This document shows positions 26,958 to 29,094 of a stretch of 64,000 nucleotides of DNA, piece by piece (position 1 is the first letter of the stretch; every line of letters starts with the position of its first letter). The stretch lies in the NCBI RefSeq assembly GCF_040253635.1, contig NZ_JBEJGX010000003.1, positions 1,364,001-1,428,000 on the forward strand, given 5' to 3'. The stretch comes from Streptomyces sp. Edi2. GTDB taxonomy: Bacteria > Actinomycetota > Actinomycetes > Streptomycetales > Streptomycetaceae. Position numbers and translations under genes: made by a program. A model generated the notes under the pieces. That model saw only the letters and a list, made by a program, of their open reading frames with translations. It searched no databases and was not told the DNA's origin.

Positions 26958-28610
26958 TCAGTCGTTCACGCTCTCCCACGGGAACTTGGCGTCGCGGCCG
27001 GCTTCGAGGAGCGGGATCATACGGAACGCCTGGTCCGTGAGGCCGCCGAAGGTGTGCCGGTAGCAGCCACCGGACGGGGCGTGTCCGGCCGCGTACCCGG
27101 CGAGGTTCCAGGTGTACATCGGAACCGTGGCCGGTGCCGACTCGGTGACCTCGCGGGCATCGCGCCCGGCCTGCTCATCGGTGACGATGACGATCCGGTC
27201 GTGGCCCTTGAACTCCTGCCGGAGAGCGAGGGCCGTGTCGGTGCCGCCGCCGAGGAACCAGCCGCCGCCCTTCCAGCGGTCCACCGCGCGCAGCAGCGAC
27301 TCGCCACCCCGCAGCGGGAACGACTTCGTGGCGGCACCCGGGGCATCGCGCTGGTACCGGCGCACGGACGAGAACGAGACGACGTCCGCGCGCTCGCACC
27401 GCTGTCCCAGAGCAATGCCGAACAGGGCTGCGGCGTCCCACCGCATCAGGGTCCCGTCACGGGAGAACCCGGCCTGCATCGAGCTGGAGGTGTCGACCAT
27501 CACCAGCGTCCGGCCACGCAGCTGCGGAATGTTCGCCAGCGACGCGGTCAGGGCCTTCTCCAGGGCGTGCCCCCAGCGCAGCGAAGGCGCGGCCCGGTAC
27601 GCCGAGTAGAAGCGCATCGGCAACTGCCGCGAGCGGGCGACCTGCTCCGGGTCGGCGAGCTTGCGCGCCACCGTCTCGGCGACCTCGTCGGAGACGCCGG
27701 CCTCGTCGAAGTTCCGGAGGTTCCGGAGTCGGGCCATGTAGCCCATGGACGGGATGACCGCCTCCCATGCCGCGGCGTCCATCGGCCCCTGCAGCCAGCC
27801 GGCCAGCGCCTCCCACGTCATGCCCGCGTGCTGCAGGAATGCGGCGGCGTCCGGGCGGGCGAGCAGCGCGCGCCGCTTCTCCACCGGCCACTCGCCGATC
27901 GCGGCCCGGGTGTGCAGCAGTTGCAGCGACTCCGGTATCGGCTTGGCGCGCTGGTGCCGGCGGTCGATGGCGTGCTCGAACAGATCGCCCTGCCACAGCG
28001 CCGTGGGGGCCGGGTGGGTGAGTTCGATGACGTCGCCGAACCGGAAGCCCTTCGTGGCGCTGTCGTACTTGAGGAGCGACTTCTCGTTGTAGAGGTGTCC
28101 GACGGCGTCCTCGATGCCGCGCTTGACGGGCTTGGGGATGCGGCGGCCGTAGCGGGACGTCCAGTAGGCGAGGAGTTCGCCGGGCTCGTCGGCGCGCTGG
28201 AGGACGGAGGCGGTGACCTTGCGGTTCCAGCCCGGGTGCTGCTGCTCGACGACCGGGCCGCCGGCGCCCTTCTCGGCGTGGAGGCGGGCGTGAACGAACT
28301 CGGCAGCACCGACGAGCGCGGCGGTCCGCATGTTGCCGGGCCCGCGCAGCCAGCCGAGCAGGCCGGCCGTCCACTTCGGGTCCTCGACGGCGAGCTGCCG
28401 GACGAGCTGGGTGTAGCGGTCGTCGCGGTCGCCCGCCTTCTCGTAGAAGGTGTCGGTGGCGACGAAGTTGGCGACGGCGAGCAGGAAGAGCTCCGAGCGG
28501 ATGTCGCGGAGGTAGCCGGCGCCGCCTTCGTGGGTGGTGGTGCGTTCGCCGGTCGTGGTCACGGGCGAGCCGGCGCCCGTGCGAGCCGTGCGAGTGTTGA
28601 AGCGAGACAA
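26958..28610 (-). CDS. rsr: TROVE-domain Ro60 ortholog (Rsr), Y-RNA-binding protein
   Basis: 550-residue bacterial Ro60. The N-terminal two-thirds is the HEAT-like TROVE ring that binds Y RNA on its outside and 3' ends of misfolded RNA in its cavity (ELFLLAVANFVATDTFYE, MRTAALVGAAEF). The C-terminus is a von Willebrand A domain with intact MIDAS start DTSSSM at about residue 373 and a conserved GGTDTALAL. Bacterial Rsr works with exoribonucleases such as PNPase in RNA decay and stress survival. TTG 28610 is chosen because it has GAGGGG at 7 nt and yields the family N-terminus SRFNTRT; GTG 28625 is the alternative. Two Y-RNA-like genes lie immediately upstream on the same strand. Confidence 0.93.
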   Translation of the reverse strand: MSRFNTRTARTGAGSPVTTTGERTTTHEGGAGYLRDIRSELFLLAVANFVATDTFYEKAGDRDDRYTQLVRQLAVEDPKWTAGLLGWLRGPGNMRTAALVGAAEFVHARLHAEKGAGGPVVEQQHPGWNRKVTASVLQRADEPGELLAYWTSRYGRRIPKPVKRGIEDAVGHLYNEKSLLKYDSATKGFRFGDVIELTHPAPTALWQGDLFEHAIDRRHQRAKPIPESLQLLHTRAAIGEWPVEKRRALLARPDAAAFLQHAGMTWEALAGWLQGPMDAAAWEAVIPSMGYMARLRNLRNFDEAGVSDEVAETVARKLADPEQVARSRQLPMRFYSAYRAAPSLRWGHALEKALTASLANIPQLRGRTLVMVDTSSSMQAGFSRDGTLMRWDAAALFGIALGQRCERADVVSFSSVRRYQRDAPGAATKSFPLRGGESLLRAVDRWKGGGWFLGGGTDTALALRQEFKGHDRIVIVTDEQAGRDAREVTESAPATVPMYTWNLAGYAAGHAPSGGCYRHTFGGLTDQAFRMIPLLEAGRDAKFPWESVND

Positions 28611-28634
28611 AAGAGAACCCCTCACGTGGAGGGG
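28609..28634 (-). terminator. Intrinsic terminator of the Y RNA that contains the rsr ribosome site
   Basis: On the minus strand CCCCTC, five bases, GAGGGG forms a hairpin (28618-28634) followed by the pyrimidine tract TTCTCTTTT. The 3' arm GAGGGG is at the same time the Shine-Dalgarno for the TTG start of rsr at 28610, so termination and rsr translation are mutually exclusive folds. Confidence 0.7.
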
Positions 28635-28645
28635 AAGCTCAGCAA

Positions 28646-28788
28646 GGGGTGCCCGAGATCAGAGTCGGCTGAGGAAACAAGGTGCTCTGCCAACTGAGCT
28701 ACGCCGATCCGAAATCGGCGACGGGACTCGAACCCGCGACCTCCCCATTAGGAGTGGAAGTATCCCCTGCCTGCGCACCGGGCACCCC
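28646..28788 (-). ncRNA. yrlA: Y RNA with permuted tRNA-like module (YrlA-type)
   Basis: About 143 nt, read on the minus strand. A perfect 10-bp stem (GGGGTGCCCG 28779-28788 with its complement 28646-28655) closes the RNA. Just inside are CCCGGTGCGCAGG and TGATCTCGGG, both shared with the neighbouring Y RNA. The apical part holds a T-arm (28721-28737, loop TTCGAGT), then a 6-bp acceptor-like stem capped by a loop (28702-28720), then TA and a D-arm (28684-28699, loop around AGTTGG). That is tRNA order rotated, so the acceptor ends are joined and the anticodon stem opens into the Ro-binding stem. YrlA RNAs with tRNA mimicry beside rsr are known in other bacteria. Not a functional tRNA. Confidence 0.85.
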
Positions 28789-28798
28789 TGATGCTGTG

Positions 28799-28871
28799 CC
28801 TCCCGAGATCAAGGACGATCCGCGGCGGAACTTGTTTCGAAGAAGTAGCCGCGGACCTGCGCACCGGGAGG
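28799..28871 (-). ncRNA. Second Y-RNA-like noncoding RNA
   Basis: About 73 nt upstream of the YrlA-type RNA, same strand. A 7-bp closing stem (CCTCCCG with CGGGAGG) is followed by an internal loop and a CCGCGG/CCGCGG helix with a pyrimidine-rich apical loop. It shares CCCGGTGCGCAGG (28856-28868) and TGATCTCGGG (28802-28811) with its neighbour. It also has GGTCCG and CTTGATC, resembling the Ro60-contact strands GGUCCG and CUUGA of animal Y RNAs. It lacks the tRNA module. No separate terminator is visible, so both RNAs may be cut from one transcript. Confidence 0.75.
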
Positions 28872-29040
28872 TGCATGAGGTTGTGCGTTCACTCTAACTC
28901 GCCCCGCTGACAACGCCAGTGAGTTTTCGCGGGGGCGGCCAAGGTCGGCCCGGCGAGGCGCCAGGACGCCCGGACGCCAAGCAGCCGCTGAGCTTCACCG
29001 GCTCGCCGACGGACTCGTGGGCAGGTCCCGCTTTGATGCC

Positions 29041-29094
29041 GTCGGAGCCGTCGGAGCTGTCGGAGCTGTCGGAGCTGTCGGAGCTGTCGGAACC
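29041..29094. repeat. Six tandem copies of a 9-bp repeat
   Basis: GTCGGAGCT with small variants, six times without spacers, in the intergenic region between the Y RNAs and the secreted FG-GAP protein. A slippage-prone microsatellite; no coding frame through it convinces me. Confidence 0.75.

Follow-up and report, generated by a model that had tools for sequence, protein, structure and literature searches.

The Ro60 gene of Streptomyces sp. Edi2 lies in a stretch of 64,000 nucleotides (the window; positions are counted from its first nucleotide). It is preceded by two small RNAs, one of them tRNA-like. Bacterial Y RNAs with a permuted module of T-arm, acceptor and D-arm are already known as YrlA. 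The question is therefore whether the tRNA-like RNA of this locus is one more of these or contains more of a tRNA, and what such an RNA could do for Ro60.

Two tandem Y RNAs precede a Ro60 gene

On the minus strand, a promoter-like motif, Y RNA 1, Y RNA 2, a hairpin and the Ro60 gene rsr follow one another in the 5′ to 3′ direction (Table 1). The initial annotation had placed two tandem Y RNAs upstream of a Streptomyces Ro60; RNAs of 73 nt and ~137 nt are both there, and the gene encodes a TROVE protein. Its product matched Pfam TROVE with 53.4 bits (curated cut-off 23; best stretch at residues 283-344) and two solved TROVE chains at 2.4e-24, which identifies it as Ro60/Rsr, and it is the sole TROVE match across the whole genome; an NCBIfam search returned no family for this protein. 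Placed by likeness, its start is likely the TTG at 28610 (MSRFNTR). Both RNAs have the hallmarks of bacterial Y RNAs, being encoded beside Ro60 and sharing a stem: the 5′ CCCGGTGCGCAGG and 3′ TGATCTCGGG noted earlier as common to them are exact in each.

Table 1. Features of the Ro60 locus, in window coordinates
Feature	Position	Strand	Basis and remarks
Promoter-like RecA-NDp/PafBC motif TTGTCAGCG-N8-TAGAGT, upstream of Y RNA 1	28891..28913	−	Pattern match
Y RNA 1, plain: Ro60-type stem and UACUUC motif, without tRNA module	28799..28871	−	Sequence; 73 nt
Y RNA 2, tRNA-like, including 11-bp closing stem	28645..28789	−	Sequence, covariance model, covariation; core 28649-28785, ~137 nt
Closing stem of Y RNA 2, 11 bp	A28789-G28779 with C28655-U28645	−	Sequence
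UACUUC motif, common to plain and tRNA-like Y RNAs (UCCUUC in some)	28757..28762	−	Alignments
Anticodon arm UUCCA-CUCCUAA-UGGGG, with CCU at the anticodon position (28750-28752)	28743..28759	−	Geometry, covariation, position-wise changes
Variable region AGGUC	28738..28742	−	Sequence
T-arm GCGGG-UUCGAGU-CCCGU	28721..28737	−	Sequence, covariation alignment
Acceptor stem, 7 bp, with UUCGG loop and without free CCA end	28702..28720	−	Sequence, covariation alignment
U8-A9, D-arm GCUC-AGUUGGCA-GAGC and A26	28683..28701	−	Sequence, covariation alignment
Hairpin CCCCUC-CACGU-GAGGGG with U-rich tail, terminator-like, overlapping the rsr ribosome-binding site	28618..28634	−	Terminator scan, leader folding
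rsr, Ro60/TROVE protein	26958..28610	−	Pfam TROVE, 3.1e-14

When 27 plain RNAs were aligned, the Ro60-stem motifs and the UACUUC/UCCUUC motif were common to them, and the consensus had 17 predicted pairs, 7 of which change on both sides, mostly in few sequences each. As the covariation term is also small (−0.83), the inner fold of the plain RNAs has weaker support than that of RNA 2. In four relatives, the Y RNA in the plain position has a long hairpin resembling a variable arm, followed by a T-arm but no D-arm or acceptor (L006:2360-2457, L007:2215-2313, L024:2307-2404 and L043:2303-2401); these are apparently half-tRNA mimics.

Y RNA 2 contains nearly a whole tRNA in rotated order

The module of RNA 2 consists of anticodon arm, variable region, T-arm, acceptor and D-arm, that is, nearly a whole tRNA in rotated order. 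Because the anticodon arm and the 5-nt variable region precede the T-arm, the tRNA backbone is cut between nt 26 and 27. The initial annotation had described a perfect 10-bp closing stem around a T-arm, an acceptor-like hairpin and a D-arm, with a U8-A9-like TA before the last. The stem is real but has 11 bp; the order of the arms was borne out by the sequence and by a match to the Rfam YrlA model, and a UA does stand before the D-arm.

The YrlA model (RF02553) matched positions 28681-28744 of the minus strand at E 1.1e-5 and 37.7 bits, below its gathering score of 69. In its consensus the Ro60 stem is followed by a linking stem and then the T-arm, and the D-arm exits via the same linking stem; the YrlA tRNA is thus opened inside the anticodon arm. 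RNA 2 has the permuted T-arm/acceptor/D-arm of YrlA and lacks the linking stem. The earlier attribution to the YrlA design therefore stands for these three elements, but not for the part where the Rfam consensus has its linking stem and RNA 2 has an anticodon arm and variable region.

Folded alone, RNA 2 is weak (z −1.49) and its anticodon arm is not recovered, and RNA 1 reaches z −2.61, yet without the Ro60 stem in its fold. The predicted structures of both RNAs are carried by comparative evidence, not by single-sequence folding.

ARAGORN called no tRNA gene in the whole window. RNA 2 is not called in genomic order and has no CCA-bearing 3′ end, its acceptor loop being UUCGG. Un-permuted, it was called tRNA-Arg(CCU), and it shares 84% identity with the genome's own tRNA-Thr(CGU) along 57 aligned nt and less with tRNA-Gly, tRNA-Asn and others. 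Among 56 arm-bearing RNAs, all 55 that could be parsed were accepted in un-permuted form and 12 of the 56 in native order; however, 509 of 550 un-permuted RNAs with shuffled arms were also accepted, and since shuffled arms pass too, acceptance by ARAGORN was ruled out as proof of the anticodon arm.

Acceptor loops of the arm-bearing RNAs measure 3-10 nt. In three of 55 relatives (the second arm-bearing RNA of L009, L031 and L045) the loop begins with ACCA, which resembles a remnant of the discriminator base and CCA end of a tRNA. One tRNA-like Y RNA is 190 nt long and has a short repeated insert in the acceptor-loop region (L040:1649-1838). Elsewhere, tandem tRNA-Asn genes match the model of the permuted RNA across their junction (L001:1532-1611). 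This match hints at an origin, itself speculative, from tandem identical tRNA genes, where the 3′ half of a gene followed by the 5′ half of its neighbour would give the same order.

The anticodon arm is supported by geometry and covariation

Perfect 5-bp hairpins of every loop size from 4 to 10 and at every distance from 2 to 9 to the T-stem were scanned in 110 T-arm RNAs. A 7-nt loop in a hairpin ending exactly 5 nt before the T-stem was found in 46 of them, as against 12 for the next best geometry, and this is the geometry of the anticodon arm plus variable region of a class I tRNA. Counted over distinct 17-mers, 21 of 78 have the arm, while 2000 shuffles gave a mean of 0.69 and a maximum of 4. 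Of the 58 arm-bearing RNAs from 81 loci, 47 have a variable region of 5 nt and 11 have one of 4 nt.

Twenty-four arm-bearing RNAs, RNA 2 of the window among them, were aligned for covariation. Over the whole structure 96.3% of cells are paired, compared with 36-48% when partners are slid, and 147 cells are changed on both sides, compared with 11-28; a less striking measure is the number of pairs with both-side changes, 19 against a shuffled mean of 15.8. The compensatory changes in the stems on which the initial annotation had staked its proposal are thus present in this alignment. The D-stem is invariant in the 24 rows and therefore gives no covariation evidence. Pairing in the helix of the anticodon arm reaches 97.5%, and both partners vary in two of the five pairs: pair 30-40 is CG in 13 RNAs, GC in 7 and UA in 4, and pair 31-39 is AU in 18, CG in 5 and unpaired in 1. 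Given the alignment alone, RNAalifold predicts the anticodon arm. A covariance model built from these 24 RNAs scored 149.6 bits on RNA 2, which is itself a training row, and 38.6 bits (E 2.6e-6) on RNA 1, which is outside the training set.

In some viral contigs the arm sits at offsets 4 and 7 from the UACUUC motif rather than 3. This displacement shows the arm to be a separate unit and not a by-product of the motif.

The anticodon drifts under a conserved arm

Changes were counted for 46 labelled loci on a quick tree of 81 Ro60 proteins, 26 of whose 78 inner branches are unresolved, so that the counts are rough. Positions 33 and 38 changed once each, while positions 34 and 35, which lie between these near-fixed sites, had 15 and 18 changes, the highest counts among 49 positions; other loose positions were 37, 44 and 72 (12 changes each) and 47 (11). 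At least 26 changes were counted for the triplet in the place of the anticodon, and 9 for the 30-40 pair. A tally of 66 arms, 58 bacterial and 8 from viral contigs, gave U33 in 62, A38 in 61 and a pyrimidine at position 32 in 65, with 17 different triplets at the anticodon position in bacteria and 21 overall.

Ten of the 66 arms have C37, which to our knowledge hardly ever occurs in real tRNAs. The enzymes that make t6A37 and m1G37 have known sequence determinants; U36A37 or G36G37 was found in 48 of the 66 arms, and, with C37 in 10, targeting of these enzymes was rejected as a general reason for the loop.

Spread of the arm-bearing RNAs

Contigs representing one genome per species were scanned for Ro60, and the best 80 of 109 relatives were kept, a set that leans to close kin. 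With the window these make 81 loci. Searched by motif, they yielded 196 Y RNAs, of which 85 are plain, 58 are tRNA-like and have a perfect arm, 46 are tRNA-like without it and 7 have a T-arm only (an earlier search with a stem requirement gave 188 Y RNAs). These figures are undercounts; in L013, for example, the covariance model detects one more RNA. Arm-bearing RNAs occur in 52 of the 81 loci, and in 26 the arm-bearing and arm-less tRNA-like plans occur together; since 46 tRNA-like RNAs lack a perfect arm, the arm is not needed for every Ro60 unit. The pairing of a tRNA-like with a plain Y RNA that had been noticed in the window proved common, a tRNA-like RNA being accompanied by a plain or T-arm-only one in 69 of the 81 loci. 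One tRNA-like and one plain RNA is thus the usual layout, and a third or fourth RNA is often added.

Among the genes neighbouring 80 Ro60 loci, protein clustering gave no cluster present in more than 37 of the 80, and the commonest clusters look like antisense GC-rich frames. In 15 of the 80 loci, a gene ahead of the Y RNAs encodes a protein that we take to resemble NADAR (for example, L032:736-1440).

In 150 genomes of the genus, the best match to the covariance model reached E ≤1e-15 in 72 by hand count, a figure that may include tRNA-like RNAs without the arm and comes from genomes partly overlapping the 81 loci; the listed matches of that strength are full length. A tally of 146 of 150 genomes was discarded as overstated, as matches covering only positions 27-104/106 of the model are probably tandem real tRNA genes; the one such partial match checked was the tRNA-Asn pair of L001. 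In G016, G033, G095 and G128 full-length matches lie on two contigs or ~0.9 Mb apart, and these genomes therefore probably hold two units of Y RNAs and Ro60. Across 396 genomes of the phylum only 8 matched at 1e-12, all of the window's genus, a result that strict filters and sampling may explain in part; arm-bearing RNAs were also found in loci of Planomonospora, Planotetraspora, Spirillospora, Actinomadura and a Catenulispora MAG.

A Ro60 relative is also encoded by 14 viral contigs, 6 of which have arm-bearing RNAs by the motif search and 8 when the Ro60-site requirement is dropped. One of these contigs has six tandem model matches of mixed Y RNA types ahead of its Ro60 relative (L136:1442-2431).

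A putative damage-type promoter and a predicted hairpin before rsr

The motif upstream of RNA 1 was identified by the pattern TTGTCRGYG-N8-TANNNT, which we take to be the RecA-NDp/PafBC consensus. The pattern matched once in the 64 kb window and never in 100 shuffles; the genome has 42 matches and none of the reversed pattern, and as a positive control one of the 42 precedes the RecA family match, 65 bp from its start. The copy in the window has GCG where the other 41 have GTG. Generic −35/−10 scans of the upstream region gave no site, or only a poor −35. Over 95 loci, the motif was found in 4 with strict settings (0.01 expected) and in 7 with relaxed ones (0.26 expected), all close loci; as the other 88 are without it, control of the damage type belongs at most to the clade of the window. 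Two papers connect RecA-NDp promoters and PafBC with DNA damage in actinobacteria (PMC5087735, PMC6789036), and a third names a PafBC-specific −26 motif (PMC11804915).

A terminator scan of 28550-29050 returned one site (0.5 expected), located over the ribosome-binding site just before the rsr start, and none between the two RNAs. Similar leaders with a hairpin over the ribosome-binding site occur in relatives. In the 87 loci that remained after 8 of the 95 were dropped for lack of an identifiable start, the pairing of this site was 0.93, versus 0.80 with shuffled upstream sequence, and exceeded 0.7 in 82 real and 69 shuffled leaders, the leaders being related to one another.

Discussion

The anatomy, the covariation, the conservation pattern and the spread of the RNA 2 type are observations; what the type is for has to be weighed among several explanations. 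RNA 2 might be an ordinary YrlA. The hairpin ahead of the T-arm would then be only a spacer helix, and the module would be closed by a short stem between the variable region and the strand that follows the D-arm. For the window, the Rfam match does include a linking stem of this kind, and the variable region and nt 26-29 can form all four pairs in 9 of 46 arm-bearing RNAs. In the other 37, however, they do not, and neither the 5/7/5 tRNA geometry nor the compensatory pairs nor the near-fixed U33 and A38 would be expected of a spacer, which makes this explanation improbable. It would take still more to believe that the locus is a permuted tRNA gene whose transcript is cut and processed into a working tRNA. 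Every tRNA part is there, the un-permuted RNA is called tRNA-Arg(CCU) and a few relatives have the ACCA-starting loop, but the acceptor ends are joined by loops of 3-10 nt that leave little room for end processing, and both the repeated change of anticodon and the occurrence of C37 speak against such a product.

Two further explanations concern function, and we regard each as unlikely. The RNAs could be a cis leader of rsr: Ro60 output would be set by Ro60 bound to the stems of the Y RNAs or by the hairpin that covers the ribosome-binding site, and any action in trans would be secondary. The position of the only terminator-like site and the pairing of the ribosome-binding site are in line with this; yet the shuffled controls were already high, the leaders are related, and the tRNA-level detail of RNA 2 is hard to account for by cis control alone. 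Alternatively, the mimic could be a decoy that competes for anticodon nucleases or other attackers of tRNA, which would explain a free anticodon under a fixed arm. Fast anticodon bases in a kept architecture, the promoter of DNA-damage type and the same kind of RNA in some viral contigs all agree with a decoy, and a competitor role has been suggested for Salmonella YrlA (PMC7790460). On the other side, the changes at positions 34 and 35 only somewhat exceed those at other loose sites, so that neutral drift suffices, no nuclease is known here, and fragments of Salmonella YrlA were reportedly not detected (PMC7790460).

The explanation we favour, with a probability of roughly 0.7, is a Ro60 unit of DNA-damage type with two Y RNA adaptors, one of them a whole-tRNA mimic that is recognized as a tRNA without having a fixed anticodon. 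A promoter of the actinobacterial DNA-damage type would drive the two tandem Y RNAs and then rsr, and both RNAs would offer Ro60 the same stem; the shared stem motifs fit the earlier idea of two adaptors for one Ro60. RNA 2 would be a whole-tRNA mimic that is interrupted between nt 26 and 27, where the Ro60 stem is attached, and that cannot be charged as it stands, its acceptor end being sealed. A partner, such as the ribosome or a tRNA-modifying or tRNA-cleaving enzyme, would read the shape of a tRNA, anticodon arm included, while ignoring the anticodon: a 7-nt loop, U33, A38, five base pairs, variable region and D-, T- and acceptor elements that are all kept, against a drifting triplet, fit a partner that checks tRNA form and not identity. 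After DNA damage RNA 2 would bring Ro60 (and, as reported for Deinococcus, PNPase) to this partner, or would compete for the partner, while plain RNA 1 would give Ro60 a form without partner contact. We infer that both RNAs are made and bound by Ro60 and that the mimic is bound by a partner.

Judged from sequence comparison, the likeliest role of RNA 2 is thus that of an adaptor or competitor in a Ro60 ribonucleoprotein beside a plain Y RNA, and a Y RNA with an anticodon arm may enable Ro60 to pose as a tRNA or to compete with genuine ones. A bolder version, which we consider doubtful, is that in many actinobacteria and some viral contigs Ro60 is equipped with a complete permuted tRNA with a free anticodon, made after DNA damage in the clade of the window. 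This RNA would stand in for tRNAs of any kind, occupy ribosomes or enzymes that cleave tRNA, and so aim or protect the activity of Ro60/PNPase.

A natural variant with an added anticodon arm and a drifting anticodon separates being recognized as a tRNA from reading a codon. The role of the tRNA-like part of bacterial Y RNAs is therefore testable by arm swaps. In favour of such work are the tractability of Streptomyces and the small size of the unit, and the promoter points to a growth condition to look in. If true, this would also add a second natural site at which a permuted tRNA fold is cut.

Comparison with known systems

The tRNA mimicry of tmRNA and of viral tRNA-like structures serves outside decoding (PMC8394870 and PMC11472068). 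RNA 2 would be like them in this respect. These RNAs are not permuted in this manner and have no Ro60 stem, whereas the acceptor end of RNA 2 is sealed. In the permuted tRNA genes of algae and archaea the 3′ half stands ahead of the 5′ half and the transcripts are processed to tRNAs; RNA 2 shares the order with the 3′ half first but has a short acceptor loop.

YrlA (RF02553) likewise adjoins Ro60 and has a Ro60-type stem and a rotated T-arm, acceptor hairpin, UA and D-arm. RNA 2 differs by a closed anticodon-arm hairpin and a variable region, joined at 26/27. Among the matches listed in a literature search, titles and the beginnings of abstracts held no account of an anticodon arm in bacterial Y RNAs, and we provisionally regard this form as undescribed. 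YrlA is described as mimicking D-, T- and acceptor arms, with dihydrouridine and pseudouridine made by DusA and TruB (PMC8394870), and in Deinococcus PNPase is reported to be tethered to Ro60 via YrlA (PMC8394870, PMC7790460). The rsr-yrlBA-rtcBA operon of Salmonella (PMC7790460) resembles the locus in the window in combining one Ro60 gene with Y RNAs under damage-linked expression, which in the window is predicted from the promoter sequence. Unlike in that operon, the rtcB match of the window's genome lies ~2.7 Mb away on the same contig, and the promoter is of the RecA-NDp/PafBC type in place of RtcR control.
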